Source: Propioniciclava tarda (GTDB taxonomy: Bacteria > Actinomycetota > Actinomycetes > Propionibacteriales > Propionibacteriaceae). From it: a DNA stretch of 64,000 nucleotides. The stretch is from positions 62,001-126,000 of the forward strand of contig NZ_FXTL01000002.1 in NCBI RefSeq assembly GCF_900182665.1, given 5' to 3'. This document shows, piece by piece, positions 1 to 64,000 of the stretch. The translations under genes and the position numbers were made by a program. Numbering within the stretch: position 1 is the stretch's first letter; each line of letters begins with the position of its first letter. The notes under the pieces were generated by a model. It made no database searches, was not told the origin of the DNA, and worked only from the letters and a program-made list of their open reading frames with translations.

Positions 1-2
1 TC

Positions 3-443
3 TGCGTGCCCGGCTCTGTCGAGGTCGTCGAGTTCATGAAGGTGCGCCGCTACAGCCACGTCATGCACCTGGAGGCGGCCGTCATCGGACGCCTCGCGCC
101 CGGTCGGACCGCCCTGGACGCCACCCTGTCGTGCTTCCCGGCGGGGACGCTCTCGGGTGCCCCGAAGGTCCGGGCGATGGAGATCATCGACCGGCTCGAG
201 GTCAGCCGCCGCGGCCTCTACGGCGGCGTGGTGGGCCACTTCGACCTCTCCGGCGACAGCGATGTGGCCATCGCTATTCGGACGGCCGTGATCAAGGACG
301 GTCGCGCCTACGTCCAGGCCGGCGCCGGGCTCGTCGCCGATTCCGTCCCGGCCAGCGAGGACGCCGAGTGCCGCAACAAGGCCATGGCCGTCCTGCGCGC
401 CGTCCAGCAGGCCGCCGGCCTGACCCGGGTGGGTCCGGCCTAG
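3..443 (+). CDS. trpE: Anthranilate synthase component I (TrpE), C-terminal part
   Basis: The frame is already open at the window edge, so only about the last 147 residues are present. They hold the chorismate-binding core of TrpE: the C-x-P-G-S-V segment, [22 protein letters not shown] and the late [12 protein letters not shown] and [10 protein letters not shown] blocks. The enzyme makes anthranilate from chorismate and glutamine-derived ammonia, the first committed step of tryptophan synthesis in the cytosol. The downstream trpC, trpB and trpA on the same strand support TrpE over the related PabB or isochorismate synthase. The feedback-inhibition region lies outside the window. No trpG, trpD or trpF is visible here. 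Confidence 0.93.
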
Positions 444-554
444 ACCGCCAGCAGGCGCGCCGTTCCGAATCGCGCACCCCGTGGTGGAGAAACGCACCCA
501 CTCCTGGGATGCTGTCTCCAGCCCACGACCACGTCGAACCAGGAAGGACGAGCC

Positions 555-812
555 ATGACCCACGGCACGGCCCATCAGTCCATCGATCCCGTCCGCAGCG
601 CGACCCAGCCGCTGACCCATCACGGACGCACCCTGGCGGCCTGGACCGGAAGCGTCATCGCCCTCGTCGGGTTCGTCATCGCCGCGGTCGCGTTCGTGCT
701 GCCCGGCGGCATCAACTGGACCGTCATGTGGATCGGGCTGGCCATCGTGGCCCTGTCGGCGATCGTCGGCCTCGTGCTGCGCAACATGGGCCACGGCGCC
801 AAGGAGAACTGA
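555..812 (+). CDS. Small HGxxPAAW-family membrane protein of the trp cluster
   Basis: An 85-residue protein with two hydrophobic helices (about residues 32–56 and 60–77) and a polar tail. Just before the first helix it carries HHGRTLAAWTG, a variant of the HGxxPAAW signature of a small actinobacterial membrane family usually found between trpE and trpC; the same position here supports the assignment. The ATG is preceded by AGGAAGGA. Its TGA is immediately followed by the trpC GTG, so translation is probably coupled. The biochemical role is unknown; the name comes from family memory and synteny, not from a demonstrated function. Confidence 0.8.
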   Translation: MTHGTAHQSIDPVRSATQPLTHHGRTLAAWTGSVIALVGFVIAAVAFVLPGGINWTVMWIGLAIVALSAIVGLVLRNMGHGAKEN

Positions 813-1610
813 GTGGGGGTCCTGGACGAGATCATCGTCGGGGTCCGCGAAGACTTAGCCGTCCGCGAGGCGTCTCTTCCCCTCCGGGAACTGATGGACG
901 CCGTCGCGCAGCTTCCCCCCACGCTCGACCCCATGCCCCGCTTCCGGGCACCGGAACTGGCGGTCATCGCCGAGGTCAAGCGGTCCAGCCCGTCGAAGGG
1001 CGCGCTGGCCGAGATCGCTGATCCCGCCGCGCTGGCGTCCGAGTACGCCGCCGGGGGGGCCGCCGCGATCTCGGTCTTGACCGAGCGACGCCGCTTCGGC
1101 GGCGAGCTGGCCGACCTGGTGGCGGTCAGGCAGAGCGTCGGGGTCCCGGTGCTCCGCAAGGACTTCATGGTCGCCGACTACCAGTTCTACGAGGCCCGGG
1201 TCGCGGGGGCCGACCTGGTGCTGCTGATCGCTGCAGCCCTCACCGATGCCGAGCTCGGACGCTTCCTGGAACTCTCCCGGCATCTCATGCTCACGCCGCT
1301 GGTTGAGGTCCACACGCCCGAGGAGACCCGGCGCGCGGTCGCGTCCGGGGCGGCGCTGATCGGGGTCAACAACCGCAACCTGCAGACCCTCGACGTCAAC
1401 ATCGCCGAGTTCGAGAAGCTGGCGAGCCTCATTCCGGCCGACCGGATCAAGGTCGCCGAGTCCGGGATCCTGGCCGTCGGCGACGTCGAACGCGTGGCGT
1501 CTGCCGGGGCCGACGTGATCCTGGTAGGGGAGGCGCTGGTCAGGTCCGGGGACCCCCGTCGCGCCGTGGCAGACTTCACGGCGGCGGGAACGGCTGCTCG
1601 CCAGCGCTGA
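813..1610 (+). CDS. trpC: Indole-3-glycerol phosphate synthase
   Basis: A 265-residue TIM-barrel enzyme that converts CdRP to indole-3-glycerol phosphate in tryptophan synthesis. Visible family motifs are [13 protein letters not shown] (residues 51–63, with the catalytic Lys near 56), [30 protein letters not shown] and the phosphate-binding VAESGI and [10 protein letters not shown] near the end. Length is normal. The GTG start directly abuts the TGA of the upstream membrane protein gene. No fused TrpF domain is present. The PriA-type isomerase encoded at 24.3 kb could supply the TrpF step, as in other actinobacteria. Confidence 0.97.
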
Positions 1611-1645
1611 CGTCAGTCGGCGTCCCACCATCGAGAGGAAACGAC

Positions 1646-2881
1646 GTGTCCTGGCCCGATGCCGGTGGTCACTACGACATCTTCGGCGGCAAGTACGTTC
1701 CCGAGGCGCTGTACGCGGCCCTCGACCAGCTCGACCGCGAGTTCACCGCGGCCCAGTCCGACCCGGAGTTCCAGGCCGAACTCGGACGCCTCCTGCGCGA
1801 CTACGCGGGGCGTCCGAGCCCCATCACGGAGCTGCCCAAGCTCAGCCGACACGCGGGCAACGCCCGCCTGGTCGCCAAGCGCGAGGATCTGAACCACACC
1901 GGCTCGCACAAGATCAACAACGTTCTCGGCCAGGCGCTGCTCACCAAACGCATGGGCAAGCGCCGGGTCATCGCCGAGACCGGAGCCGGCCAGCACGGCG
2001 TGGCCACCGCGACCGCCGCCGCGCTGCTGGGCCTCGAGTGCCGCGTCTACATGGGCCGCGTCGACACCGACCGCCAGGCCCTCAACGTCGCCCGGATGCA
2101 GCTGCTGGGCGCCGAGGTGGTCGCGGTCGAGTCCGGGTCGAAGACCCTCAAGGACGCCATGAACGAGGCCATGCGCGAGTGGGTGGCCACCGTCGACGAG
2201 ACCCACTACCTGATCGGCTCGGTCGCCGGCCCGCACCCCTTCCCGCGCATGGTCAAGGGCTTCCAGCGGGTCATCAGCGACGAGGCCCGCGCCCAGCTGC
2301 TCGATCGCGACGGGGTGCTGCCCTACGGGGTGGCCGCCTGCGTCGGCGGTGGCAGCAACGCGATGGGCATGTTCGCGGCGTTCATCGACGACCCGGACGT
2401 CGCGCTGTACGGCTTCGAGGCCGCCGGCGACGGCGTCGAGACCGGACGCCACGCGGCGTCCATCTCGGCCGGCAGCGTCGGCGTCCTGCACGGCATGCGG
2501 ACGTACGTCCTGCAGGATGACGACGGCCAGACCCTCGAGTCCCATTCGATCTCGGCCGGCCTGGACTACCCGGGCGTCGGCCCGGAGCACGCCTGGCTGG
2601 CGGCGTCCGGACGCGGCACCTACGAGCCCGTGACCGACGCCGAGGCGATGGACGCCTTTCGGCTGCTCACCCGCGAGGAGGGCATCATCCCGGCCATCGA
2701 GTCGGCGCACGCGGTCGCCGGGGCAATGCGCCTCGGCCGCCGGCTCGCCGAGGAGCAGCCCGAGCTGCGGCCTACGATCTGCATCTGCCTGTCCGGCCGC
2801 GGCGACAAGGACACCGACACGGCGCTCTCCTGGTTCGGCCTCGACGGCACCCCCGATCGGTCGATGGGAGGCGGGTTCTGA
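1646..2881 (+). CDS. trpB: Tryptophan synthase beta chain
   Basis: A 411-residue PLP enzyme that condenses indole with serine. The N-terminal GGKYVPE block, the PLP lysine in [10 protein letters not shown] (Lys89), the [12 protein letters not shown] loop, [10 protein letters not shown] (phosphate-binding GGGSN) and the C-terminal CLSGRGDKD are all intact, which identifies the TrpB1 type that pairs with TrpA. The GTG start has a purine-rich GAGAGGAAAC tract just upstream. The stop TGA shares its last base with the ATG of trpA (TGATG), as expected for equimolar alpha/beta production. Confidence 0.98.
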
Positions 2882-3711
2882 TGGCGGATTACGGACAGTC
2901 GGGGCAGGCCTTCCTCAAGGCCAAGGCCGAAGGACGCGGCGCGCTGGTCGCCTACGTGCCGGTCGGCTACCCGGACGTGGCCACGTCGTACGCCGCGATG
3001 CGCGCCGTCTGCGGCGACGGGGACACCCCCGGCGTCGACCTGGTCGAGATCGGGCTGCCCTACAGCGACCCGGTCCTCGACGGACCCGTCATCCAGCGGG
3101 CCGGCACCCAGGCCCTGCAGCGCGGCGTCCGGACGCGGGACGTCTTCGGCGCCATCGAGGCCGTCGCCTCCACGGGGACGCCTGCGGTGGCCATGACCTA
3201 CTGGAACCTCGTCGACCGCTACGGCGTGGACGCCTTCGCCCGCGACTTCGCGAACGCCGGCGGCTGCGGCTTGATCACGCCCGACCTCACCCCGGACGAG
3301 GCCGAGGAGTGGCTGGCCGCCTCCGACGCCTACGGCCTCGACCGCATCTTCCTGGTGTCTCCGAGTTCGACCGACGAGCGCATCGTCGCCACGACCGCCG
3401 CCTGCCGGGGCTGGGTCTACGCGACCGCTGTCATGGGCGTCACCGGCGCCCGGACCGAGACCTCGTCCCTGGCTCCCGAACTGGTCGGACGCCTCCGTGC
3501 CTTGGCCCCCGACACGCTCGTCGGCGTCGGGCTCGGTGTCTCGACCGGCGCCCAGGCGCGTGAGATCACCGGCTACGCGGACGCCGCCATCGTCGGCTCC
3601 GCCCTCGTCCGAACCCTGATCGAGGCCGAGGATGCCGGACGCCCGAGCGATCTGAGCGGTCTACGCCGGGTCGTGGCCGACCTCACTGCGGGCGTACGGT
3701 TGCGGTCGTGA
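2881..3711 (+). CDS. trpA: Tryptophan synthase alpha chain
   Basis: A 276-residue TIM-barrel subunit that cleaves indole-3-glycerol phosphate and channels indole to TrpB. The catalytic pair is visible in LVEIGLPYSDP (Glu56) and LDGPVIQRA (Asp67). The phosphate-binding GVGLGVSTG and IVGSALV segments are present near the C-terminus. It overlaps trpB by one base at the start. At its end the TGA overlaps the GTG of lgt. A likely -10 element for lgt (TACGGT) lies inside the last codons of this gene. Confidence 0.97.
   Translation: MADYGQSGQAFLKAKAEGRGALVAYVPVGYPDVATSYAAMRAVCGDGDTPGVDLVEIGLPYSDPVLDGPVIQRAGTQALQRGVRTRDVFGAIEAVASTGTPAVAMTYWNLVDRYGVDAFARDFANAGGCGLITPDLTPDEAEEWLAASDAYGLDRIFLVSPSSTDERIVATTAACRGWVYATAVMGVTGARTETSSLAPELVGRLRALAPDTLVGVGLGVSTGAQAREITGYADAAIVGSALVRTLIEAEDAGRPSDLSGLRRVVADLTAGVRLRS
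3695..3700 (+). promoter_or_regulatory. Putative -10 box for a leaderless lgt mRNA
   Basis: TACGGT fits the actinobacterial TAnnnT -10 pattern and ends 7 nt before the lgt GTG, where transcription would be expected to start. lgt has no Shine-Dalgarno sequence. The box lies within trpA, so lgt may be expressed both by read-through and from its own start. No clear -35 was seen. Confidence 0.4.
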
Positions 3712-4574
3712 GCCTGCTGTTCATTCCGAGCCCGCCGATCAACGGCGTCCAACTGGGGCCGTTCTTCGTGCACTTCTACGCGCTGACGATGCTGTCCGGC
3801 TTCGCGGTGGCGTTCCTGATCGGACGCCGGCGCTGGGTCACGCGCGGGGGAGACCCCGTCGTCTTCGAGAACATCGTGATGTGGGCGATCCCGTCCGGCC
3901 TCGTCGGGGCGCGGATCTACCACGTGCTCACCCACTGGGGCGACTACTTCGGCCCGGGGCACCTCAACCCCTTCGCGATCTGGGAGGGCGGCATCGCGAT
4001 GTTCGGGTCGCTCATGGGCGGCGCCATCGGCGCCCTCATCGCGGCCCGGCTCTACAAGGTGCGCCTGTGGGCCTTCGGCGACTGCATCGCCCCCGGCATC
4101 GCGGTCGCGCAGGCCGTCGGACGCCTCGGCAACTGGTTCAACCAGGAACTCCTCGGACAGCCCTCAACGGCCCCCTGGGCGCTCGAGATCGACCTCGCTC
4201 ACCGGCCCCCGGGCCTGGAGCAGTTCGCCACCTTCGAGCCCACGTTCCTCTACGAGCTGCTGCTGAACCTGCTGGCCGCGGCGATCATCCTCAAGCTCGA
4301 CAAGATGCTTCGCCTGGGCCACGGGGCCTGCTTCGCCCTATACATCGCGCTGTACGGCGCGATCCGCTTCGTCATCGAGGGCATGCGCACCGACTTCTCG
4401 TACTACCTCGGCCCGCTCCGGACGAACCAGGTCACGGCGCTGGCGGTCTGCATCGGTGGCGCCATCGGTTTCGTCCTGCTGCGGCGCTTCCTGCCGGGCC
4501 GCGAGGCGCCGCACCTCGAGGCGTCCGAGCCGGTGACGTCGGAGGCTGGGACGGACGCGTCGGCGTCCGAATGA
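3708..4574 (+). CDS. lgt: Prolipoprotein diacylglyceryl transferase
   Basis: A 288-residue polytopic membrane enzyme that moves diacylglycerol from phosphatidylglycerol to the lipobox cysteine of prolipoproteins. The Lgt signature GRLGNWFNQE (residues 138–147), the IPSGLVGARIYHV and EGGIAMFGSLMGG segments and about seven hydrophobic helices are present. The last 20 residues are a polar acidic tail common in actinobacterial Lgt. The GTG overlaps the trpA stop (GTGA). Its place after trpA is common in actinobacteria. A likely substrate in this window is the L,D-transpeptidase lipoprotein at 25.5–26.5 kb. Confidence 0.97.
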   Translation: MSLLFIPSPPINGVQLGPFFVHFYALTMLSGFAVAFLIGRRRWVTRGGDPVVFENIVMWAIPSGLVGARIYHVLTHWGDYFGPGHLNPFAIWEGGIAMFGSLMGGAIGALIAARLYKVRLWAFGDCIAPGIAVAQAVGRLGNWFNQELLGQPSTAPWALEIDLAHRPPGLEQFATFEPTFLYELLLNLLAAAIILKLDKMLRLGHGACFALYIALYGAIRFVIEGMRTDFSYYLGPLRTNQVTALAVCIGGAIGFVLLRRFLPGREAPHLEASEPVTSEAGTDASASE

Positions 4575-4703: not shown

Positions 4704-7700
4704 ATGGTGATGCCCAGCCGCGCGGCCGAAGGTCTGTACGACCCTTCGTTCGAGCACGACGCCTGCGGTGTCGCCTTCGTCGCCCAGTTGAGCGGGACGC
4801 CGAGCCACGACATCGTCGCCAAGGGGCTCACCGCACTCGAGAACCTGGACCATCGTGGCGCCACCGGCGCCGACGAGGCGGCCGGCGACGGCGCGGGGAT
4901 GCTGCTGCAGGTGCCCGACCGGCTCATCCGCGAGACGGTCAATTTCCACCTGCCCGAGCCCGGCCACTACGCCATCGGCATGGCCTTCCTGCCCTCGGAC
5001 GCCCGCGCCCGCGCCACCGCCAAGCGCACCATCGAGTACATCGCGATCGAGGAGGGGCTGCGCGTCCTCGGCTGGCGCGACGTGCCCACCAACACCGACA
5101 CGCTCAGCCCCGTCTCGTTGGCGGTGAAGCCGTTCTTCGAGCAGCTCATCGTCACCGACGACGTCGACCCGACCGCCGGCATCGACCTGGACCGGATGGT
5201 GTACCCGCTGCGCAAGCGCGCCCAAAACGAGGCGTCCGTGTACATCGCCTCGCTGTCGGCGCGGACGCTTGTCTACAAGGGCATGCTCACCACCCAACAG
5301 CTGCGCGAGGTGTTCCCGGATCTCACCGACGAGCGCTGCGAGTCCGCGCTCTCGCTGGTGCACTCGCGCTTCTCGACCAACACGTTCCCGTCCTGGGAGC
5401 TGGCGCACCCCTACCGGATGCTGGCCCACAACGGCGAGATCAACACCATCAAGGGCAACCGCAACTGGATGGCCGCGCGCGAGTCGCTGCTGTCCACCGA
5501 CAAGATCCCCGGCGACCTGTCCCGGACCTTCCCGGTGGTCACGCCGGGCGGCTCCGACTCGGCGTCCTTCGACGAGGTGCTCGAACTGCTGCACCTGGCC
5601 GGACGCTCCCTGCCGCACGCGGTCATGATGATGATCCCGGAGGCCTGGGAGAACAACCGCCAGATGGACGCCAAGCGGCGCGACTTCTACCGCTTCCACG
5701 CGTCCGTCATCGAGCCCTGGGACGGCCCGGCGGCCGTCTGCTTTACCGACGGGTCGCTCATCGGGGCCACGCTGGACCGCAACGGCCTGCGTCCGGGACG
5801 GTTCTGGGTGACCGACGACGGACTCGTCGTGTTCGCGTCCGAGGCCGGAGTGCTCGACATTCCGCAGAGCAAGGTCGTGAAGAAGGGGCGCCTCCAGCCC
5901 GGTCGCATGCTGCTGGTCGACCTCGAGCAGCATCGCCTCATCGACGACACCGAGATCAAGCAGCAGTTGGCCGAGGCGCAGCCGTACGGCGAGTGGGTGA
6001 CCCGACGCCTGAACCTGAAGAACCTGCCCGAGCGCGCCCACGTGGTGCACTCGCACAGCTCGGTGCTGCGCCGCCACCAGATGTTCGGCTACACCAACGA
6101 AGAGGTGAAGACGATCATCGCCCCGATGGCCGAGACCGGCGCCGAGGCGATCGGATCGATGGGCACCGACACCCCGCTGGCGGTGCTCTCCGAGCGTCCG
6201 CGGCTGCTGTTCGACTACTTCAGCCAGCTCTTCGCGCAGGTGACGAACCCGCCGCTGGACGCCATCCGCGAAGAGATGGTGACGTCGCTGTCGAGCTCGA
6301 TCGGGCCTGAGAGCAACCTGCTGGAGCCCGGCCCGGACTCCTGCCACCAGATCGTGATCCCGTACCCCGTTCTGGACTCCGACGAGCTGGCCAAGCTGGT
6401 CCGGATCAACCGCGACGGCAGCCACCCCGAGTTCGACAGCTACGTCATCCGCGGGCTCTACCAGGTGCACGACGGCGGCCCTGCGCTGGAAGCTCGCCTG
6501 GACGAGATCTGCACCGAGGTCGGCGAGGCGATCAAGAACGGCAAGCGGACGATCATCTTGTCCGATCGCCACAGCAACACCGACGAGGCCCCGATCCCGT
6601 CGCTGCTGCTGGTCGCGGCGGTGCACCAGTACCTGGTGCGCGAGAAGCTGCGCACGCAGGTCGGCCTGATCGTCGAGGCCGGCGACGTCCGCGAGGTGCA
6701 CCACATGGCGCTCCTGATCGCCTACGGCGCTGCGGCCGTCAACCCCTACCTGGTCTTCGAGACCGCCGAGGACCTGGCCCGCAACGAGCTGTACCTCACG
6801 GTGACCCCCGAGAAGGCGATCTACAACGTCCGCAAGGCGCTCGGCAAGGGCGTGTTGAAGGTCATGAGCAAGATGGGCGTCTCGACGCTGGCGTCCTACA
6901 CCGGCTCGATGATCTTCGAGGCCGTGGGCCTGTCCAGCGAGTTCGTGGGCAAGTACTTCACGGGCACGGCATCCCGCATCGAGGGCATCGGGGTCACCGA
7001 GATCGCCGAGGAGATCCGGCAGCGGCATTCGTGGGCGCATCCGTCCGACCACCGGACGGTGGCCCACCGCACGCTCGACGTCGGCGGCGAGTACAAGTGG
7101 CGCCGCGAGGGCCCGCCGCACCTGTTCGATCCCGACACGGTCTTCCGGCTGCAGCACGCGACACGCACGAAGCGGTTCGACATCTTCCGCCAGTACACCC
7201 AGGGCGTGAACGACCAGGCCAAGCGCCTGATGACGCTGCGCGGCCTGCTGGAGTTCGACACGGACGCCCGCGAGCCGATCAGCATCGACGAGGTCGAGCC
7301 GATCAGCGCGATCGTCAAGCGGTTCTCGACGGGTGCCATGAGCTACGGCTCGATCAGCCGCGAGGCCCACGAGACGCTGGCGCGTGCGATGAACAAGCTG
7401 GGTGCCAAGTCGAACACCGGCGAGGGCGGCGAGGACCGCGAGCGCCTCTACGACCCCGAGCGCCGCTCGGCGATCAAGCAGGTGGCGTCCGGACGTTTCG
7501 GCGTCACGAGCGACTACCTGACGAACGCCGACGACATCCAGATCAAGATGGCCCAGGGCGCCAAGCCCGGCGAGGGTGGCCAGCTGCCCGGCCAGAAGGT
7601 TTACCCCTGGATCGCCTCGACCCGGCACTCCACGCCGGGCGTCGGCCTGATCAGCCCGCCGCCGCACCACGACATCTACTCGATCGAGGATCTCAAGCAG

Positions 7701-9230
7701 CTGATCCACGACCTGAAGTGCGCGAACCCGGTGGCCCGCATCCACGTGAAGCTGGTCGCCGAGGTGGGCGTCGGCACGGTCGCCGCCGGCGTCAGCAAGG
7801 CCAAGGCCGACGTGGTGCTGATCTCCGGCCACGACGGTGGCACCGGCGCCGCGCCCCTCACGTCCGTCAAGCACGCCGGCGGGCCCTGGGAGCTCGGCCT
7901 CGCCGAGACGCAGCAGACGCTCCTGCTCAACGGGCTGCGCGAACGCGTGGTCGTGCAGGTCGACGGCCAGCTCAAGACCGGACGCGACGTCGTCATCGGC
8001 GCGCTGCTCGGGGCCGAGGAGTTCGGCTTCGCCACCGCCCCGCTGGTCGTGTCGGGCTGCATCATGATGCGCGCGTGCCACCTCGACACCTGCCCCGTCG
8101 GCGTCGCCACGCAGAACCCCGAGCTGCGCGAGAAGTTCACCGGCGACCCGGAGTTTGTCGTCACGTTTTTTGAGTACATCGCCGAAGAGGTCCGCGAACT
8201 GCTGGCGTCCCTGGGCTTCCGCCGTCTCGAGGACGCCGTCGGTCACGTCGAGCTGCTCCGGACGCGCGAGGCCATCGACCACTGGAAGGCGCAGGGGCTC
8301 GACCTCGCGCCGATCCTGCACCGCGTCGAACTGGCGCCGGGGGCGTCCCTGAAGAACTCGACGACCCAGGACCACGGCCTCGACGCCAAGCTGGACGTGA
8401 CCCTCATCGAGCAGGCGCGTCCGGCGCTCGACAAGGGCGAACGCGTCCGGTTCGCGGTGGACGTCCGCAATGTCGACCGCACCGTCGGCACGATGCTGGG
8501 CCACCACGTCACCAAGGCCACGAAGGGCGAGGGTCTGCCGGACGACACCATCGAGATCGACTTCACCGGCACCGGCGGCCAGAGCTTCGGCGCGTTCGTG
8601 CCGAAGGGCATCACGCTGCGGCTCACCGGCGACACGAACGACTACCTGGGCAAGGGCCTGTCGGGCGGACGCCTCGTCGTGCGTCCAGCCGCGGACGCGC
8701 CATTCGCCGCCGAGGAGCAGATCATCGCCGGCAACGTCATCGGCTACGGCGCCACGTCCGGTGAGCTGTTCATCCGCGGTCTCGTGGGCGAGCGGTTCTG
8801 CGTCCGCAACTCCGGGGCGACCGCGGTCGTCGAGGGCGTGGGCGACCATGCGTGCGAGTACATGACCGGGGGAGAGGCGCTGATCCTCGGCCCCACCGGA
8901 CGCAACGTCGCCGCCGGCATGTCCGGTGGCGTGGCCTGGATCCTCGACCTCGATCTCGACCGGCTCAACTCCGAGCTGGCCGACCCGTGTCCCCTGAGCG
9001 ATACCGACCTCGATCGGGTCACCGAGCTGCTGGCCAAGCACCACGCCGAGACCGGCTCGACCGTCGCCCGGGTGCTCCTGGACGCCGGCCGTGACGAGCT
9101 GGCTAGGCGCTTCACCAAGGTCCTGCCGCGCGACTATGCGCGCGTGCTGGCCGCCAAGGCCGACGCGGAGGCGTCCGGTCTCGATTCCGAAACTACGGTC
9201 AAGCTGATGATGGAGGCCGCTCATGGCTGA
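4704..9230 (+). CDS. gltB: Glutamate synthase (NADPH) large subunit
   Basis: A 1508-residue alpha subunit that forms glutamate from glutamine and 2-oxoglutarate. The N-terminal class II amidotransferase nucleophile is in HDACGVAF (Cys21), so a short propeptide of about 20 residues should be removed. Next come the central domain, the FMN-binding synthase domain ([31 protein letters not shown]), the 3Fe-4S cysteines in [16 protein letters not shown] (about 1118–1133) and a C-terminal GXGXG beta-helix domain. Length is normal for bacterial GltB. The last eight bases overlap gltD. Either ATG of the ATGGTGATG cluster could start it; the first has the better spacing. Confidence 0.97.
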
Positions 9231-12054: not shown

Positions 12055-12056
12055 CG

Positions 12057-12656: not shown

Positions 12657-12729
12657 GAGGGCTCTCGGGTTCTTCCCCGCCCGGCATCCCTTGCGCACGC
12701 ACGAGCTGAAGGAGGCGCGGACCACCGCC

Positions 12730-15700
12730 ATGCCGGACGGTTTCGTACATCTGCACTGCCATTCCGAGTTCTCGATGCTCGACGGGGCGGCCCGACTGAA
12801 GGGGCTGGTCCAGGGCGCCGAGAAGATGGGGATGCCCGCGCTGGCGGTGACCGATCACGGCAACCTGTTCGGCGCCTACGAGTGGTACAAGACGGCCAAG
12901 GGCAGCCCGGTGAAGCCGATCATCGGCCTCGAGGCGTACCTGACGCCGAAGACGCATCGGTCTGAGCGCAAGCGGGTCCAGTTCGGCGACGGCACCGGCG
13001 ACGACGTGGCGGCCAAGGGCGCCTACACCCACATGACCATGTGGGCCGAGAACAACGCAGGCATGCACAACCTGTTCCGGCTCAGCTCGCTGTCGAGCCT
13101 GGAGGGGTTTTTCTACAAGCCGCGCGCCGACCGCGAGCTGCTGAACCGCTACGGCAAGGGCCTGATCGCCACCACCGGTTGCCCGTCCGGCGAGGTGCAG
13201 ACCTACCTGCGGCTCGGTCAGTACGCGGACGCGGTGAAGTCCGCGGCCGAGTTCCGCGACATCTTCGGCGCCGGCAACTTCTACTGCGAGTTGATGGACC
13301 ACGGCCTCGACATCGAGGCCCGCGTCCGGGCCGACCTCCTGAAGCTGGCCAAGGAGCTCAAGCTGCCGCTAGTCGCCACCAACGACCTGCACTACGTCAA
13401 CGCCGAGGACGCCGAGGCCCACGACACCCTGCTGTGCGTCTCGTCCGGCTCGAATCGGGACACGCCAGGACGCTTCAAGTTCGACGGCAACGGCTACTAC
13501 CTGAAGCCGGCCGAGGCGATGCGGCTGCTGTTCTCGAACCTGCCGGAGGCCTGCGACAACACCCTCGAGATCGCCGAGCGGTGCGAAATCTCGTTCGACG
13601 AGGGCAGCGGCACCTACATGCCCGAGTTCGGGGTGCCCGAGGGCGAGACCGAGGCGTCCTGGTTCATCAAGGAGGTGGCGCGGGGGCTGACCGCGCGCTT
13701 CCCGAACGGCATTCCCGAGTACGCGCTGAAGCAGGCGGAGTTCGAGCAGGACGTCATCATCGGCAAGGGCTACGCGGGCTACTTCCTCGTGGTCGCCGAC
13801 TTCATCAACTGGGCCAAGGAGAACGGCATCCGGGTCGGCCCCGGGCGCGGCTCGGGCGCCGGCTCGATGTGCGCCTACGCGATGCGGATCACCGACCTCG
13901 ACCCGGTGCCGCACGGGCTGATCTTCGAGCGCTTCCTCAACCCGGAGCGTCCGTCCATGCCCGACTTCGACGTCGACTTCGACGAGCGTCGCCGCGGCGA
14001 GGTGATCCGCTACGTCACCGAGAAGTACGGCGACGACCGGGTCTGCCAGATCGTCACCTACGGCACCATCAAGGCCAAGCAGGCGATCAAGGACGCCGGA
14101 CGCGTCCTGGGCAAGCCCTTCAGCCTCGGCGAGAAGATCACCAAGGCCTACACGCCGCCGGCGATGGGCAAGGACGTCCCGATCGCCGAGGTCTTCAACC
14201 CCCAGCATCCGCGCTACGGCGAGGGCACCGAGTTCCGCGAGCTGTACGACACCGACCCCGAGGTGAAGGAGGTCGTGGACACCGCCCGCGGCATCGAGAA
14301 CCTCAAGCGCCAGTGGGGCGTCCACGCGGCCGGCGTCATCATGTCGAGCAAGCCGTTGATCGACGTCATCCCCATCATGAAGCGGGAGCAAGACGGCCAG
14401 ATCATCACCCAGTTCGACTACCCGAGCTGCGAGGCGCTCGGCCTGGTCAAGATGGACTTCCTGGGCCTGCGCAACCTTACGATCCTCGACGACGCCATCC
14501 GCAACGTCGAGTCGAACCGGGGCGTCGTCCTCGACCTCGACGAGCTGAGCCGGGAGATGACGGATCGAGCGGCGTACGACCTGCTGGCGTCCGGTGAAAC
14601 CCTGGGCATCTTCCAACTCGACGGCGGCGGCATGCGCTCCCTCCTGCGCCTCATGCAGCCCGACAACTTCGAGGACATCTCCGCGGCCCTGGCCCTGTAC
14701 CGGCCCGGCCCGATGGGCGCCGACTCGCACACCAACTACGCGCTCCGCAAGAACGGCAAGCAGCCGATTGAGCCGATCCATCCCGAGCTGGCCGAGCCCT
14801 TGCGCGACATCCTCGACACCACCTACGGCCTGATCGTCTACCAGGAGCAGGTGCAGCAGATCGCCCAGCGGGTCGCCGGGTACAGCCTCGGCAAGGCCGA
14901 CCTGCTGCGGCGCGCGATGGGCAAGAAGAAGAAGGAAGTGCTGGAAGCCGAGTTCGTCCCGTTCTCGGGCGGAATGCGGGCGAACGGCTACTCGGACGCG
15001 GCCATCAAGTCGCTCTGGGACATCCTCGTGCCCTTCTCCGACTACGCCTTCAACAAGGCCCACACCGCCGCCTACGGCGTCATCTCGTACTGGACGGCCT
15101 ACCTCAAGGCGAACTACCCGGCCGAGTACATGGCCGCGTTGCTGGAGTCCGTGAAGGGCGACAAGGACAAGTCGGCGGTGTACCTCGCCGAGTGTCGGCG
15201 CATGGGCATCAGGGTGCTGCCGCCCGACGTGAACGAGTCCGTTGGCATGTTCACCCCCGTCGGCACCGACATCCGCTACGGGCTGGGTGCGATCCGCAAC
15301 GTCGGCGACAACGTCGTCCGAGGGATCGTCGCCGGACGGGACGAGCACGGCAAGGCGTCCGACTTCAACGAGTTCCTCGACAACGTGCCGCTCGTGGTCT
15401 GCAACAAGCGGGTCATCGAGTCGCTGATCAAGGCGGGCGCCTTCGACTCGCTGGGCCACACCAGGCGCGCGCTGATGGAGTGCTTCGAGGCCAAGGTGGA
15501 CGCCGTCATCGACCTCAAACGCAACCAGGCCAACGGCCAGGACGACCTCTTCGCGGCCTTCTTCGATAGTTCGGACGCCGCCGGCTCGGCCTCGATGGCG
15601 ACGCCGATTCCCGCGATCGCCGAGTGGGACAAGACGGCCCTGCTCGCGTTCGAGCGCGAGATGCTCGGCCTCTACGTGAGCGATCACCCGCTGAACGGCC

Positions 15701-16260
15701 TGGAGCACATCGTGGCGGCCAACCGCGACCTCTCGATCGCGATGCTCGTCGCCGACGGTGGCCCCCGCGACGGCACCGTCACGATCTGCGGCTTGATCAC
15801 CCACGTCCAGCGCAAGCAGAGCAAGGACGGCCGGCAGTGGGCGATCCTCACGGTCGAAGACCTCGAGGCGTCCCTGGAGGTGCTGGTCTTCACCAACGCC
15901 TACGCCCCGGTGGCGATGTCGGTGGCCCCGGACACGCTCGTCCGCATCAAGGGACGCGTCCGCGAGAAGGACGAGAGCGTCGAGCTCTCGGCGTCCGATG
16001 TGTCGTTCCCGGACGTGACCACCGGGCCGACGGGGCCGTTGACGCTCAACCTGCCGACCACGCGCTGCACGCCGGCGGTCGTCGAGCAGCTGAAGTTCGT
16101 CCTGGGCCGGCATCCGGGCACCCAGGAAGTACGCATGCGGCTCATCGCGGGCGCGGGCGCCAAGGTCTGGAAGCTGGACGACCGACTCCGGGTGGCCACC
16201 TCGCCCTCGCTGATGGCGGAGCTCAAGGCCCTGCTCGGCCCGTCCTGCGTGGGCGTGTAG
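12730..16260 (+). CDS. dnaE: DNA polymerase III alpha subunit
   Basis: A 1176-residue replicative C-family polymerase. The N-terminal PHP domain starts VHLHCHSEFSMLDG (residues 6–19) and has the histidines and acidic residues of a metal site. The catalytic core includes GPGRGSGAGS and PDFDVDFDERRRGEV (about 411), which supplies two catalytic aspartates. After the fingers and FNKAHTAAYG comes a helix-hairpin-helix region and an OB fold (TICGLITHVQRKQSKDG). Length is typical of DnaE1. The frame stays open upstream to 12628, but family alignment and the AAGGAGG tract favour the ATG at 12730. Confidence 0.96.
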   Translation: MPDGFVHLHCHSEFSMLDGAARLKGLVQGAEKMGMPALAVTDHGNLFGAYEWYKTAKGSPVKPIIGLEAYLTPKTHRSERKRVQFGDGTGDDVAAKGAYTHMTMWAENNAGMHNLFRLSSLSSLEGFFYKPRADRELLNRYGKGLIATTGCPSGEVQTYLRLGQYADAVKSAAEFRDIFGAGNFYCELMDHGLDIEARVRADLLKLAKELKLPLVATNDLHYVNAEDAEAHDTLLCVSSGSNRDTPGRFKFDGNGYYLKPAEAMRLLFSNLPEACDNTLEIAERCEISFDEGSGTYMPEFGVPEGETEASWFIKEVARGLTARFPNGIPEYALKQAEFEQDVIIGKGYAGYFLVVADFINWAKENGIRVGPGRGSGAGSMCAYAMRITDLDPVPHGLIFERFLNPERPSMPDFDVDFDERRRGEVIRYVTEKYGDDRVCQIVTYGTIKAKQAIKDAGRVLGKPFSLGEKITKAYTPPAMGKDVPIAEVFNPQHPRYGEGTEFRELYDTDPEVKEVVDTARGIENLKRQWGVHAAGVIMSSKPLIDVIPIMKREQDGQIITQFDYPSCEALGLVKMDFLGLRNLTILDDAIRNVESNRGVVLDLDELSREMTDRAAYDLLASGETLGIFQLDGGGMRSLLRLMQPDNFEDISAALALYRPGPMGADSHTNYALRKNGKQPIEPIHPELAEPLRDILDTTYGLIVYQEQVQQIAQRVAGYSLGKADLLRRAMGKKKKEVLEAEFVPFSGGMRANGYSDAAIKSLWDILVPFSDYAFNKAHTAAYGVISYWTAYLKANYPAEYMAALLESVKGDKDKSAVYLAECRRMGIRVLPPDVNESVGMFTPVGTDIRYGLGAIRNVGDNVVRGIVAGRDEHGKASDFNEFLDNVPLVVCNKRVIESLIKAGAFDSLGHTRRALMECFEAKVDAVIDLKRNQANGQDDLFAAFFDSSDAAGSASMATPIPAIAEWDKTALLAFEREMLGLYVSDHPLNGLEHIVAANRDLSIAMLVADGGPRDGTVTICGLITHVQRKQSKDGRQWAILTVEDLEASLEVLVFTNAYAPVAMSVAPDTLVRIKGRVREKDESVELSASDVSFPDVTTGPTGPLTLNLPTTRCTPAVVEQLKFVLGRHPGTQEVRMRLIAGAGAKVWKLDDRLRVATSPSLMAELKALLGPSCVGV

Positions 16261-20868: not shown

Positions 20869-21953
20869 GGGCCGACGTCACGCTCGCGGACCTGCCGCTG
20901 CGCCCCGAGTTGGTGGGGGAGGAGCCCTACGGCGCACCCCAGCTGGACGTCCCCGTCTGCCTCAACGTCAACGAGAACCCGTACCCGCCCTCGGACGCGA
21001 TCCGGCGCGAGATGGCGGACGCGATCCTCGCGGCGTCCGCCCGGATCGACCGCTATCCGGACCGGGAGGCGTCCGAGCTGCGCCGCCGGCTGGCGGCCTA
21101 TCTCGGGTACGGGCTGACGATGACGAACGTGTGGGCCGCGAACGGCTCCAACGAAGTCATGACCCACGTGCTGGGCGCCTTCGGCGGACCCGGACGCCGC
21201 TGCCTCACGTTCACGCCGACCTACTCGATGTACCCCGAGTACGCGCGGAACACGCACACCGAGTACGTCACCGCGGCCCGGCACGACGACTACACCTTGG
21301 ATGCGGGCCTCGTGCTGAGCGCCATCGACACCCAGCGGGCCGATGTCGTGCTCATCACCACGCCGAATAATCCCACGGGCACCTCGACTCCGCTCGACGT
21401 CATCGAGACGGTGCTCGAGGGCACGGACGCGATCGTGGTCGTCGACGAGGCCTATCAGGAGTTCTCGACCACCCCGGACGCCAGCGCCCTGGGCTTGCTG
21501 CCGCGCTTCGGCAACCTGATCGTGTCGCGCACGATGTCGAAGGCGTTCGCCCTCGCAGGCGGACGCGTCGGCTACTTGGCCGCCGCGCCGGCGATCGTGG
21601 ACGCCTGCCGGATCGTCCGGCTGCCGTACCACCTCTCGGCGCAGACCCAGGCGATCGCCGAGGTGGCCCTCGCGCACGCCCCCGCGATGCTGGCCAACGT
21701 CGACCTCCTACGGGCAGCACGTGACGAGTTGCTGGTCCGGCTGCCGGAGCTGGGGTACGAGGTCGTGCCGTCCGATGCGAACTTCGTCCTCTTCGGACGC
21801 TTCACCGACCGGCACCTCGCCTGGCAGCGGCTCTTGGACGCCGGCGTCCTGGTACGCGAAACTGGCCCGGCCGGCTACCTGCGCGTCTCCGCGGGAACCC
21901 CGGAAGAAATGGCCGCCTTCTACGCGGCAGTCGAACAGATCGGACACCCATGA
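20865..21953 (+). CDS. hisC: Histidinol-phosphate aminotransferase
   Basis: A 362-residue class I/II aminotransferase that makes L-histidinol phosphate from imidazole-acetol phosphate and glutamate. It opens with the [10 protein letters not shown] block of HisC, has the NGSNEV cofactor loop, [16 protein letters not shown] and the PLP lysine in [17 protein letters not shown]. Length is normal. The start overlaps hisD (ATGA) and the end overlaps hisB (ATGA), consistent with tight translational coupling. Confidence 0.97.
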
Positions 21954-27534: not shown

Positions 27535-28101
27535 ATGCGCGTGCTCGGGATCGATCCCGGCCTCACCCGCTGCGGTGTGGGCGTGGTCGAGGGCGACCCC
27601 GGTCGGACGCCGACGCTGTTGCTCGCCGACGTCATCCGGACGGCGTCCGATCTGGAGACCGGCCAGCGCCTCGCGGCGTTGGAGCGGTCGCTGGTGCAGT
27701 ACCTCGCCGAGTACCGTCCGGACGCCATCGCGGTGGAGCGTCCGTTCGCGCGCCGCGACGTCTCGACCATCATCGGCACCGTCCAGGCGGCCGGTGTGGT
27801 CCTGCTCGTCGGGACGCGCGCGGGCCTCAGCGTCGCCCAGCACACGCCGACCGAGGTGAAGGCGTCCATCACCGGCAGCGGACGGGCCGACAAGGCACAG
27901 ATCGGCCACATGGTGATGCGGATCCTCAAGCTGGACGCCCCGCCACAGCCCGCGGACGCCGCCGATGCGGTCGCCCTGGCCGTCTGCCATCTTTGGCGAG
28001 CGCCGGCCATCGCGCGGATCGAGCAGGCCCGGGAGCGCGCCGAGCTGGCCCAGAGCATCGCCCAGTGCCGCGCGAGGGCGCGCGAAAGGAGGCTGGGATG
28101 A
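27535..28101 (+). CDS. ruvC: Holliday junction endonuclease RuvC
   Basis: A 188-residue resolvase that cuts Holliday junctions after RuvAB branch migration. The catalytic acidic residues are visible in VLGIDPGLTRCG (Asp7), AVERPFARRD (Glu) and the C-terminal ADAADAVALAVCH (two Asp). GGAGGAG lies six bases before the ATG. The ATG of ruvA overlaps its stop. It is the first gene of ruvCAB behind a LexA-type box. Confidence 0.97.
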   Translation: MRVLGIDPGLTRCGVGVVEGDPGRTPTLLLADVIRTASDLETGQRLAALERSLVQYLAEYRPDAIAVERPFARRDVSTIIGTVQAAGVVLLVGTRAGLSVAQHTPTEVKASITGSGRADKAQIGHMVMRILKLDAPPQPADAADAVALAVCHLWRAPAIARIEQARERAELAQSIAQCRARARERRLG

Positions 28102-38425: not shown

Positions 38426-39744
38426 GCCGCCCCAAGCCCCTGTCCGGCTTCCCCGAGTTCCTGCCCGCCGGACGCATCGTCGAGCAGGCCGTGCTCGACT
38501 CGCTGCGCTCGACGTTCGAGCTGCACGGGTTCGCGTCCGTCGAAACCCGGGCCGTCGAGACGATGGAGTCGCTGACCCGCAAGGGTGAGATCACCAAGGA
38601 GGTCTACGTCGTGCGCCGCCTGCACGCGGCGGAGGGCGAGGCGTCCGACGATCTTGGGCTGCACTTCGACCTGACGGTCCCCTTCGCGCGCTACGTGCTG
38701 GAGACCTCGGGCCACCTGGCGTTCCCGTTCCGGCGCTACCAGATCCAGAAGGTGTGGCGTGGGGAGCGGCCGCAGGAGGGCCGCTACCGCGAGTTCGTCC
38801 AGGCCGACATCGACATCGTCGGCGAGGGCTCGCTGGCCGAACACCACGACGTCGAGGTCGCGCTGGTGATGCTGGAGGCGCTGGAGGGACTGCGAGCGCT
38901 CGGAGTCCCGCCGGTCACCATCCACGTCAACAACCGCAAGCTCGCCGAGGGCTTCTACCGCGGCCTCGGCGTCGACGACCACCTCGCCGTCCTGCAGCGC
39001 GTCGACAAGCTCGACAAGATCGGGCCGGACGCCGTCCGCGGGCTTCTGGTCGACGAGTTGGGGATGGCGCCCGAGTCTGCCGACAAGTGCCTGGCGCTCG
39101 CGACCATCACCAGCGCCGACGCGTCGTTCGTGGACGCCGTCCGCGCGTTGGGCGTCCGAAACGACCTGCTGGACGAGGGGCTGGAGGCGCTGGCGTCCGT
39201 CGTTCGGGCGGCGGCCAAGGTCGCGCCCGGACGCGTCGTCGCCGACCTCAAGATCGCCCGCGGGCTCGACTACTACACCGGGACCGTCTACGAGACCGAG
39301 CTCGAGGGCTACGCCAAGCTCGGCTCGATCTGCTCGGGCGGGCGCTACGACTCGCTGGCCACCGACGGCAAGACGACCTACCCGGGCGTCGGGATCTCGG
39401 TCGGGGTGACGCGCATCCTGGGCGTCCTGATCGGACGCGGCAAGCTCGTCGCGTCTCGGTCGGTGCCGACGTGCGTGCTGGTCGCGGTCGACTCGGAAGA
39501 CACCCGAGACGCCGCCATGGCCGTCGCGTCTCGGTTGCGTTCTCGCGGCATCGCGACCGAGGTCGCGCCGAAGGCTGACAAGTACGGACGCCAGATCCGC
39601 TACGCCGAGCGCCGCGGCATCCCGTTCGTCTGGTTCGGGGAAGGCTCGGTCAAGGACATCCGCTCCGGCGACCAGTCGGACGCCGACCCCGACACCTGGA
39701 CGCCCCCGGCGTCCGATCTGCGGCCGACGGTCAGCGCGGGGTGA
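38422..39744 (+). CDS. hisS: Histidine-tRNA ligase
   Basis: A 440-residue class II synthetase. Motif 2 region FRRYQIQKVWRGERPQEGRYREFVQADIDIVG and the HisRS-specific GLDYYTGTVYE are clear, as is motif 3 GVGISVGVTRI and the C-terminal anticodon-binding domain. The N-terminus (PLSGFPEFLP) is the form I associate with actinobacterial HisRS. The ATG overlaps the upstream stop. Its TGA lies inside GTGA, where the GTG is in frame with the GNAT gene downstream. Confidence 0.96.
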   Translation: MSRPKPLSGFPEFLPAGRIVEQAVLDSLRSTFELHGFASVETRAVETMESLTRKGEITKEVYVVRRLHAAEGEASDDLGLHFDLTVPFARYVLETSGHLAFPFRRYQIQKVWRGERPQEGRYREFVQADIDIVGEGSLAEHHDVEVALVMLEALEGLRALGVPPVTIHVNNRKLAEGFYRGLGVDDHLAVLQRVDKLDKIGPDAVRGLLVDELGMAPESADKCLALATITSADASFVDAVRALGVRNDLLDEGLEALASVVRAAAKVAPGRVVADLKIARGLDYYTGTVYETELEGYAKLGSICSGGRYDSLATDGKTTYPGVGISVGVTRILGVLIGRGKLVASRSVPTCVLVAVDSEDTRDAAMAVASRLRSRGIATEVAPKADKYGRQIRYAERRGIPFVWFGEGSVKDIRSGDQSDADPDTWTPPASDLRPTVSAG

Positions 39745-57164: not shown

Positions 57165-57219
57165 GCGTCCCCTCGGACGCGTCGAGGACGCGTCCGGACG
57201 CCGTGACAGACTGACCCTC

Positions 57220-61168: not shown

Positions 61169-61633
61169 ATGACCACCACCATCGAGCGGCGCATCTTCAA
61201 CTCGGCCGCCATCTGGACCGTGCTGGGGCTGCTGTCGGGGCTCGGCTACCGCGAGCTGACCCGCACGCTGGAGTTCACGGGCAAGACGCAGCTGGCCGTC
61301 GCCCACACCCACGCTCTCGTGCTCGGCACCGTGATGCTGCTGATCGTCCTCATCCTGACCCGCGTCTTCTCTCTGGCCACCGACGAGCGGTTGGGCTACC
61401 TCTTGGGCTTCTGGAACGCCGGTCTCGCACTGACGTTCGGCATGCTCGTCACCAAGGGCACGCTCCAGGTCCTCGGCAACGAGCTCGCGAACCACAAGGC
61501 GGTCGCGGGGGTGTCCGGGCTGGGCCACATCCTGTTGGCCGGATCGTTCGTCGTCCTCTTCCTGATCGTCCGCAAGGGTCTGGGTTCCACCCCGACGCCG
61601 GCCGCGGAGGTCGCACCCGCTAGCGTGAGCTGA
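61169..61633 (+). CDS. DUF2871 domain-containing membrane protein
   Basis: A 154-residue protein with four hydrophobic helices. AVAHTHALVLGTVMLLIVL, with two histidines entering the second helix, and VSGLGHILLAGSFVVLFLIV match the DUF2871 family of putative membrane proteins. The histidine placement could suit heme or metal binding, but that is conjecture. GAAAGGAAACC is a strong ribosome site before the ATG. It stands between the HsmA gene and a two-component system on the same strand. Confidence 0.83.
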   Translation: MTTTIERRIFNSAAIWTVLGLLSGLGYRELTRTLEFTGKTQLAVAHTHALVLGTVMLLIVLILTRVFSLATDERLGYLLGFWNAGLALTFGMLVTKGTLQVLGNELANHKAVAGVSGLGHILLAGSFVVLFLIVRKGLGSTPTPAAEVAPASVS

Positions 61634-61653
61634 CCACGACCCAGGAGATCGAC

Positions 61654-62850: not shown

Positions 62851-63467
62851 TCCGCGTGTTGGTGGTGGACGACCACCCGGTGATCCGAGGAGGCCTGGCC
62901 GCCCTGCTGAGCGGCGAGCCGGACCTGCAGGTCGTGGCGTCGGCCGCGTCCGGTGAGGAGGCGCTGGCCATGGTCGACGACGTGCGTCCCAGCCTGGTCC
63001 TGTGCGACCTTCGCCTGGGCCCCGGCATCGACGGCGTCGAGGTGACGACCGCCCTGAGGGCGCTCCCGGACCCGCCCGCGGTGCTGATCCTGACCACCTT
63101 CGACAACGACAGCGACATCGTCCGCGCCGTGATGGCCGGGGCGGCGGGCTACCTGTTGAAGGACGCTCCCGCCGAGGCGATCGCCGACGGCATCCGGGAC
63201 GCGATCGCCGGACGCCTCGTCCTAACACCGGAGCTCCTCGGACGCGTGAGCGACCGGATGACCAAGGGCGTCCCGGACCTGAGCGAGCGCGAGCTGGCCG
63301 TCCTGCGCGAGGTCGCGCTGGGCCGGACCAATCGCGAGGTCGCCAAGGCGCTGTTCATCTCGGAGGCGACGGTGAAGACGCATCTCGTCCACGCGTACTC
63401 CAAGCTGGGCGCCGGCAACCGCACCGAGGCCTTGGCACGCGCCCGCGATCACGGACTCCTCGGCTGA
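62847..63467 (+). CDS. LuxR/NarL-family response regulator
   Basis: A 206-residue regulator. The receiver has [12 protein letters not shown], the phosphorylated aspartate in [11 protein letters not shown] (Asp near 54) and the switch lysine in [10 protein letters not shown]. The C-terminal LuxR helix-turn-helix is [51 protein letters not shown]. It overlaps the kinase gene by four bases. The preceding HsmA, DUF2871 and PaiB-like genes are plausible targets. Confidence 0.95.
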
Positions 63468-63521
63468 GCCCGTCACCGGTTCACAGTCGGGGCCGGTTTC
63501 TCGACCTCGCGACATTCTCGG

Positions 63522-63527
63522 TAGACT
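63522..63527 (+). promoter_or_regulatory. Putative -10 box for efp
   Basis: TAGACT predicts a transcript start near 63534 and a leader of about 26 nt with the strong ribosome site GGAGGAAGG (63544–63552). TCGACC at 63501–63506 is a weak -35 candidate. Confidence 0.45.
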
Positions 63528-63559
63528 CCGGCGTCGGAGTACTGGAGGAAGGCACGCGG

Positions 63560-64000
63560 ATGGTTCAGATCTCGACGAACGACCTGAAGAACGGCACGGT
63601 TCTCGACCTGGACGGTCAGCTGTGGGCCGTCATTTGGTTCCAGCACCACAAGCCGGGCAAGGGCAACACGGTCGTCCGCAGCAAGCTCAAGCACGTCCTG
63701 AGCGGCAAGGTCGTCGACCGCACCTTCAACTCCGACACCAAGGTCGAGAGCGCTTCCGTCGACCGCCGCGAGATGCAGTACCTGTACCACGACGGCGAAG
63801 CCTTCGTGTTCATGGACGCCACCAGCTACGAGCAGCTCCCGATCCCGGACGCCGTCGTCGGCGACGGCAAGGACTACCTGCTCGAGAACATGATGGCCAC
63901 GGTCGCCACGCACGAGGGCAACCCCCTCTACATCGACCTGCCCCCGTCGGTGGAACTCGAGATCACCTACACCGAGCCCGGGCTGCAGGGCGACCGCTCC
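63560..64000 (+). CDS. efp: Elongation factor P, N-terminal part
   Basis: The first 147 codons of EF-P, cut by the window end. It starts [21 protein letters not shown]. The loop that reaches the peptidyl-transferase centre is [17 protein letters not shown], with the tip lysine present; actinobacterial EF-P is often active unmodified on this lysine. The central OB domain ([23 protein letters not shown]) is complete, and the third domain is just beginning. EF-P relieves ribosomes stalled at polyproline. Placement after the aro genes is usual. Confidence 0.96.

Follow-up and report, generated by a model that had tools for sequence, protein, structure and literature searches.

Background

Why does one six-letter word recur so often, on both strands and in every reading phase, in a bacterial chromosome? 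The question is raised by a 64,000-nucleotide stretch of Propioniciclava tarda (contig NZ_FXTL01000002.1; C2:62001-126000 in our numbering, hereafter the window), in which the hexamer GGACGC or its complement GCGTCC had been described from the letters alone as highly iterated. The genome containing the window (G000) comprises 2.97 Mb in 40 contigs, with an estimated completeness of 100%. Both orientations were counted together as GGACGC ("the word"), and the same word read backwards (the reversed word) served as control. About 29% of G000 was read as sequence, and the word was counted across all of it. Genes were called with our own simple caller, which gave 57 genes in the window and 394 in 464 kb of G000.

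Abundance and codon-preserving null models

GGACGC occurred 240 times on the forward strand of the window and GCGTCC 213 times, and with 453 copies the word was its commonest hexamer. Independent bases gave an expectation of 100.8, or one per 635 bp, close to the one per 600 bp at 70% GC assumed earlier, and Markov models of order 1 to 4 gave 146.5, 124.0, 205.4 and 297.2. By ratio over the third-order model the word was eighth, with rarer words ahead of it. The whole of G000 contained 20,152 copies (10,001 GGACGC and 10,151 GCGTCC), about one per 150 bp or about 6.8 copies per kb, and 4,015 copies of the reversed word (2,017 and 1,998).

Three codon-preserving nulls were applied: gene-wise synonymous permutation, the same with junction bases kept, and the same with two bases on each side kept, the last of which already preserves part of GGACGC. 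In the 464 kb of G000, 2,827 coding copies were found against 1,156 (x2.45), 1,269 (x2.23) and 1,870 (x1.51), respectively, and the word ranked first of all hexamers under each null. The 57 window genes held 417 coding copies against 172.6 under the gene-wise null (standard deviation 9.8, maximum 207 in 200 shuffles). Phase counts in the window were 58/27/142 for GGACGC (expected 8.2/8.4/90.4 from the same shuffles) and 93/71/26 for GCGTCC (expected 21.2/42.0/2.4). All six phase and strand classes were raised in G000, by 1.6- to 8.6-fold over the gene-wise null and 1.2- to 2.0-fold over the two-base-context null. The Asp-Ala phase (GAC-GCC), already singled out as very common, was the commonest, yet it had the smallest excess under the gene-wise null (x1.58) and the largest under the two-base-context null (x1.99). 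The word was present in 55 of the 57 window genes, and 39 window copies lay entirely outside called genes; 238 short spacers of G000 (30 kb) held 185 copies, against 51–85 from Markov models of order 1 to 3, and 30 of the reversed word.

The sequence-only reading of a highly iterated word, on both strands, in all codon phases and also between genes, was thus borne out over codon-preserving nulls, in the window and genome-wide. It had proposed the null test and had named two grounds for dismissal, no excess over a codon null or an excess in a single phase; neither was found.

Relative to composition, the word-encoded dipeptides Asp-Ala, Ala-Ser, Gly-Arg and Arg-Pro stood at 1.34, 1.31, 1.17 and 1.08 in G000, and at 0.97, 0.87, 0.90 and 0.96 in 39 named actinobacterial loci of >69% GC. 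The reversed dipeptides differed less (1.07, 0.89, 0.84 and 0.84 in G000 vs 1.02, 0.99, 0.86 and 0.78). Relatives with a weaker excess were intermediate, with 1.19, 1.09, 1.12 and 1.10 in G093, 1.10, 1.02, 1.04 and 1.05 in G011, and 1.05, 1.02, 1.08 and 0.99 in G017. Because the codon nulls keep the protein while these dipeptides are themselves raised, the nulls probably understate the effect.

Gains, losses and fixation bias

G000 was aligned by BLASTN pieces with G103 (74.6 kb, 79% identity) and G011 (119 kb, 75%), which together with G123 are its three nearest relatives by RelA. The gain test took sites where the relative is one base off GGACGC and the other five bases agree, with the base-change rate at that codon position as expectation. 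G000 had the word opposite such a neighbour 127 times against 40.3 expected (G103) and 182 times against 58.4 (G011), the top rank among 1,063 and 1,205 hexamers (mean ratios 0.92 and 0.93). Gains exceeded expectation at all six positions of the word, least at position 4 (x1.4, G103) and most at position 3 (about x12); position 3 (A) gave 52 of the 127 and 59 of the 182 differences, and single cells are small, a few of them zero. Transitions were raised x3.8 and x3.5 (G103 and G011), transversions x3.0 and x3.0, GC-to-AT changes (position 3 only) x12.8 and x9.8, and AT-to-GC changes x2.5 and x2.7. Codon positions 1 and 2 were at least as strong (x3.3–6.1) as position 3 (x2.8). The bias was x4.4–7.0 with C before the core, x2.1–2.9 with C only after it, and x0.7 and x1.9 with neither.

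The reverse comparison, of the relatives' word with a neighbour in G000, was weaker (x1.46 for G103, rank 63 of 997; x1.90 for G011, rank 10 of 1,176), so the G000 line has more of the word than its relatives. When changes were polarised with three genomes over 60 kb, 15 gains were counted where 5.4 were expected and 12 losses where 32.1 were (0.37 of expectation), all small counts; for 20 hand-picked control words gains pooled to x1.26 and losses to x1.04. By standard fixation formulas these small counts of gains and losses correspond to a fixation bias with a scaled coefficient of about 1.8 per site. Since differences toward the word occur in all substitution classes and codon positions, and losses are fewer, the fixation bias acts on the word itself.

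Conservation of the sites was ordinary: 161 of 493 (0.33) were kept in the comparison with G103 and 195 of 767 (0.25) with G011, where permuted words averaged 0.285 (58 words) and 0.233 (59), and the word ranked 21 of 59 and 25 of 60. The copies therefore turn over, as expected if the number of sites matters and not their place. Close to another copy (within 25 bp) the gain bias was x2.8 and x2.5, and at 120–250 bp it was x4.4 and x3.7; it is a local effect.

A cause at the level of DNA and not of protein, as first suggested, is supported by the spread over all phases and strands, by the spacers, and by differences of both the synonymous and the nonsynonymous kind. A preference for certain codons or codon pairs was rejected as the cause on the codon nulls, the phase spread and the differences at all codon positions.

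Form of the word

The unit is a sharp six-position core, GGACGC, with graded flanks, and its best form is CGGACGCC, with C before and C after. None of the 18 single-substitution neighbours of the core was in excess over the gene-wise null (0.56–1.05); under the junction null they reached up to 1.13. One-mismatch forms within the 8-mer context stood at 0.35–1.21 of the gene-wise null, only the two outer positions being graded. In 722 kb of coding DNA the full CGGACGCC was found 1,828 times on the two strands together, against 396 and 471 under codon nulls. The nine NGGACGCN forms, with C on neither side, totalled 333 against 338.7 (sums from the neighbour counts), which indicates a specificity spanning about 8 bases.

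GGACGC and GCGTCC differ, so the word is not palindromic. The palindromic fusions GCGTCCGGACGC and GGACGCGTCC were minor, with 23 and 38 copies in 389 kb of coding DNA (1.5 and 4.25 under the synonymous null). Over 864 kb of G000, inward pairs (GGACGC...GCGTCC) with starts 9–20 bp apart were raised x1.95, outward pairs at that distance stood at x0.95 and direct pairs at x0.58, and outward pairs 6–8 bp apart were raised x1.92; at 21–32 bp inward and outward pairs were similar (1.35 and 1.46). Among 31 abundant words GGACGC had the strongest orientation preference (z 6.5), followed by words overlapping it. Six relatives gave 1.25–1.82 for inward and 0.75–1.28 for outward pairs at 9–20 bp, and direct pairs were below 0.8 in five of the six. 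Terminator hairpins were rejected as the source of the pairs: inward pairs with loops of 3–14 bases numbered 240 against 117 outward, but 82% of them lay in genes (single copies, 86%).

Other words also departed from expectation. CGATCG and/or GATCGC were high under the synonymous null in coding DNA of G000, G103, G011, G122 and G017; CGATCG, found 1,040 times against 725 expected in G000 coding DNA, is a second iterated word and resembles the core of the cyanobacterial highly iterated palindrome HIP1. GAGGCCTC was strongly avoided in G000 coding DNA (12 vs 77 expected), and several CTAG-containing words seldom arise in G000 when compared with relatives. CTAG is commonly rare in any case, and restriction avoidance together with this rarity is a possible explanation.

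Distribution among relatives

Enrichment at genome level is given as the ratio of word to reversed word unless a codon null is stated. Among 147 genomes of the family, all 13 members of the genus had ratios of 2.0–5.0, with G000 at 5.0, G123 at 4.1 and G068 lowest at 2.0. High ratios were also found in other genera, in G122 (genus g9, 3.0), G062 (g25, 3.0), G087 (g17, 2.9) and G072 (g16, 2.4), and sister genomes in two of these genera, G109 (g9, 0.67) and G057 (g16, 0.53), were without excess. In 246 genomes of the class, most of them from other families, the ratio was mostly near 1, and some of family f20 reached about 1.5. Four genomes of family f26 (G170, G189, G207 and G222) stood at about 1.6–2.0. 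Five of 80 named loci exceeded the reversed word more than 1.6-fold: Propionicimonas, Rothia (L033), a short metagenome contig (L042) and two Streptomyces loci (L058 and L077).

Judged by the gene-wise codon null, it ranked first in G000 (x2.41), in its genus-mates G103, G011 and G093 and in G122 and G072, one genome from each of two other genera, and second in G017, from a third; the six relatives had x1.65–1.92 in 134–280 kb each. Single 20-kb pieces gave x1.64 in G116 (rank 11) and x0.69 in both G109 and G005; for G005 the evidence conflicts, its whole-genome ratio being 1.5. The word came first in 8 of 13 small pieces from relatives of g1, g9, g16 and g17, and weaker pieces included G068 (57 vs 41) and a 5-kb piece of G117 (5 vs 9). 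After the core, C was preferred in g1 genomes and G017, and A was most favoured in G122 and G072. The core is thus common to several genera and the flanks are lineage-specific. DnaE identity to G000 was 83% for G103 and 82% for G011. Among the 80 named loci, a set from which near-identical records may be missing, the closest DnaE (80%) came from a Propionicimonas metagenome genome; judged by DnaE the genus would probably be Propionicimonas or a neighbour of it, and Propionicimonas is assigned by NCBI to Nocardioidaceae.

Placement within the genome

No overall strand polarity was found in G000 (chi-squared 20.4 for 21 stretches; oriC and dif were not located), though stretch L088 was uneven by strand (92 vs 56). 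Polarity was likewise absent in six word-rich relatives, with chi-squared values of 10.2 for 7 stretches in G103, 6.0 for 14 in G011, 11.6 for 12 in G093, 7.5 for 12 in G122, 6.8 for 12 in G017 and 5.1 for 10 in G072. Single 20-kb pieces gave 0.5 (G116), 7.1 (G109) and 0.6 (G005), the only strong value coming from G109, a genome without the excess. The suggested analogy with Chi or a chromosome-polarity motif did not hold up, and a polar word of this kind was rejected on the even strand counts per stretch.

Spacer density was 6.9 per kb for co-directional, 6.7 for convergent and 5.9 for divergent neighbours. Enrichment along genes was nearly flat (2.39–2.55) after a slightly lower value in the first 60 bases (2.05), and in the spacing of copies the 3-base coding period stood out. 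Genes aligned to G011 (x2.43, 85 genes) and those not aligned (x2.34, 106) did not differ, the unaligned group not being proven accessory because only part of G011 was used.

Density tracked GC content (r = 0.72 over 5-kb windows). Stretch L091 (C4:1-20000), of GC 0.64, had 2.65 copies per kb, with some 5-kb windows at the level of the reversed word. This low-GC, word-poor island carries large open reading frames (ORFs). It also encodes a C5 methylase, for which DruM (Druantia-like) was the best PADLOC match in a scan that covered the methylase only. A second word-poor segment, L082 9293-14128 (C1:109293-114128), contains ORFs of 819, 538 and 205 aa, overlaps Eco57I and N6_Mtase matches, and is probably an acquired restriction or defence locus. 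A 2.07-kb stretch without any copy, of GC 0.52 (L081 16793-18860, on C1), is perhaps a recent insertion. Such segments suggest that recently acquired DNA is poor in the word, a pattern confounded with GC content.

Copies within the window

The word is dispersed over positions 1..64000 (240 copies on the plus and 213 on the minus strand), with gaps of mean 141, median 85 and maximum 939 bases, and 163 of the 453 copies have the extended form CGGACGCC/GGCGTCCG. Gene names in this paragraph are those of the sequence-only reading. Its count of seven in the hisC stretch (20941..21540) was reproduced exactly (5 on the plus, 2 on the minus strand); for the ruvC stretch (27601..27860) the number, given as about six, is five (3 plus, 2 minus). 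The phases that it cited were correct: GGA-CGC (Gly-Arg, phase 0) at 38470..38475 on the plus strand in hisS (called 38422-39744), GCGTCC read on the plus strand as -G CGT CC- (Arg-Pro) at 13947..13952, a minus-strand copy in dnaE (called 12691-16260), and GCG-TCC (Ala-Ser) at 9171..9176, a minus-strand copy near the end of gltB (called 4704-9230). Five copies are packed into 57165..57201 (starts 57165, 57175, 57186, 57190 and 57196), in the spacer after a gene ending at 57164.

Discussion

Our best guess, held tentatively, is that GGACGC may provide dense sites for an abundant chromosome protein. An abundant, sequence-specific nucleoid protein of this bacterial family would bind the word as a site of low information, each site adding slightly to occupancy within about 100–200 bp and being weakly selected wherever it is located and in either orientation. 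Inward-facing pairs 9–20 bp apart would be preferred, and recently acquired DNA would arrive without sites and gain them slowly. A gain bias near existing copies at a density of one per 150 bp favours many weak, local, additive sites, and the combination of six crisp positions with graded flanks resembles a protein's binding profile. It can be argued that a process already saturated once there is about one site in each kb, such as long-fragment uptake or strand-directed repair, should have stopped at this density.

Several points weigh against a chromosome protein. Searches for a reader, which covered only Vsr, ComEC and four methyltransferase families, found none, and gains and losses would look the same under a repair or conversion drive that acts at the site itself. 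For sites more than 250 bp from another copy the few counts (1 vs 2.9 and 10 vs 3.7) leave the gain bias uncertain. Even spacing and a helical period were looked for and not found: spacing is more variable than random (coefficient of variation 1.22, variance/mean 1.2–2.0), leaving coverage uneven, and no helical period was clear among 40 periods of 9–13 bp, the best being 10.4 bp with power 2.8. The pair geometry is weaker in relatives, with inward and outward pairs nearly equal in G122 (1.32 and 1.21) and no deficit of direct repeats in G093 (1.2); it could partly reflect the flank preference, and other words are also somewhat orientation-biased (CTCGGC z 3.0, CGCCGC z 2.5).

An uptake word, preferred by the DNA-import machinery of a naturally transformable family and driven up by recombination with taken-up DNA, is unlikely in our judgement, although it fits much of the distribution: the word is non-palindromic and strand-symmetric, lies in genes and spacers, has a shared core with flank differences like the dialects of DNA uptake sequences (DUS) described in PMC3630211, and is approached by every substitution class. 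ComEC matches were found in 141 of 144 family genomes, including G000 (C2:41063-41857), but this near-universal protein occurs also in G057 and G109, which lack the excess; competence genes were dropped as an explanation since ComEC does not discriminate word-rich from word-poor genomes. A 6-base word that chance alone would place every 635 bp or so at 70% GC would discriminate poorly, and a fragment of kb size would already contain several copies, yet gains are still favoured beside existing ones. Core forms with one mismatch show no excess over the codon null, whereas PMC1939737 reports singly mismatched uptake sequences as over-represented under a different null. The earlier analogy with an uptake word fits poorly, given the density of about one per 150 bp, the missing one-mismatch excess and the bias beside existing copies. 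We doubt equally that biased repair or gene conversion, in which an enzyme recognises the word or marks one strand and mismatch repair then favours the word-bearing strand, is responsible. It would need no phenotype, would explain the uniform spread, and accords with a site-local gain bias and the protection of existing copies; a repair ratchet of this type was proposed for HIP1 by Elhai (PMC4390886). However, no Vsr (PF03852) match was found in G000 (3 of 13 genus members have one), transitions, transversions, GC-to-AT and AT-to-GC changes are all raised, so that no single mismatch type is involved, and none of the four methyltransferase Pfam families searched is present in every genus member. 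PF01555, PF00145, PF02384 and PF07669 give family-level matches in 12, 8, 12 and 12 of the 13; of these families G011 has N6_N4 methylase matches only, one of the two interrupted by a stop, and G034 has no N6_N4 methylase match.

It is improbable that an orphan DNA methyltransferase of epigenetic function has the word as its target, with selection on methylation keeping the copies numerous. G000 does have an orphan-looking RsrI-like N6/N4 methylase (C4:84505-85362), shared at 66–78% identity by its three nearest relatives, G103, G123 and G011; but the same enzyme (69–76%) is present in G051, G081, G021, G092, G109, G079 and G058, where the ratio of word to reversed word is 0.7–1.7, and no match of comparable identity was found in the word-rich G122, G087, G017 and G072. 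Beyond the nearest relatives the presence of this enzyme does not track the word, and on that ground it was dropped as the cause. Its gene (L192 1444-2304), patchy in the family at 66–78%, lies between ORFs recognised by eye as major facilitator superfamily (MFS) transporter-like and phosphatase-like. Context-dependent mutation or codon-pair preference, acting without recognition of the word, is very improbable. The overlapping words CGGACG, GACGCC and CCGGAC also rank high and position 3 (to A) makes up a large share of the differences, both of which speak for it, whereas all 18 single-substitution neighbours lie near or below the gene-wise null and specificity extends over about 8 bases, the NGGACGCN forms without a flanking C being at expectation. 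The simple form of a context effect is hard to hold, and codon pairs are made unlikely by the excess in all six phases and in spacers and by the nonsynonymous differences.

How does the word compare with known systems? Xu, Lawrence and Durand are said to have worked on selection for HIP1 (GCGATCGC), which GGACGC resembles, as it does the alternate HIPs of cyanobacteria, in being short and repeated throughout the genomes of a clade, more strongly in some than in others. HIP1 reaches 300–2700 per Mb in most cyanobacteria outside group C1 (PMC4390886); the count for comparison is that of CGGACGCC in 722 kb of coding DNA. The excess is below that of HIP1, the 8-mer being at x3.9–4.6 over codon nulls and HIP1 at an observed/expected ratio of 55–228 on base composition, a laxer null. 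HIPs are palindromic and usually occur in genomes that encode methyltransferases matching them (PMC4390886), whereas GGACGC is not palindromic and no methyltransferase family among the four is shared; the HIP1 analogy drawn earlier keeps its lineage-shared iteration and loses the palindrome. With the DUS of Neisseriaceae and the uptake signal sequences (USS) of Pasteurellaceae it shares the non-palindromic form, strand symmetry, a core with lineage dialects, and absence from some family members (PMC3630211); DUS copies number 2,245–4,549 in genomes named there. GGACGC differs in having 6–8 bases, 20,152 copies and no one-mismatch core excess. DUS are 10-mers or slightly longer, and to our knowledge no uptake specificity is known for this family. 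Chi, and the polar words KOPS (FtsK-orienting polar sequences) and AIMS (architecture-imparting sequences), are likewise short and over-represented; they are read by chromosome machinery and strand-biased along replichores, unlike GGACGC, which is strand-symmetric in G000 and six word-rich relatives. As with Dcm/Vsr in E. coli, an enzyme could raise the word by biased repair, but very-short-patch (VSP) repair there concerns one mismatch type; it was rejected here on the lack of a PF03852 match in G000 and the variety of substitutions gained. By the tests made, the word is not a HIP (non-palindromic), not a Chi or KOPS word (no polarity) and not a product of VSP repair; HIP1 and DUS are the nearest known kinds, and one expected feature of DUS, the one-mismatch excess, fails. 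No account of GGACGC as an iterated or over-represented word was found among the titles and beginnings of abstracts listed by a literature search, with subscription journals largely outside it.

Conclusions

GGACGC is possibly, though we would not presume it, a non-palindromic chromosome-organising word, a candidate site of an abundant actinobacterial DNA-binding protein at one per 150 bp; selected or driven hard enough to shape amino-acid sequence, it would amount to a DNA-level code running through the proteome. Genome-wide iteration has been described for few words, and debate continues over what HIP1, the most familiar of them, is for. GGACGC is very dense, is not a palindrome, occurs in several genera and is commoner in the G000 line than in near relatives, which makes its cause testable, since the rivals differ in the substitution spectra, saturation distances and protein partners to be expected. 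Its scarcity may flag recently acquired DNA, and a DNA-level force that shifts dipeptide frequencies is a warning against reading such protein features as adaptive.

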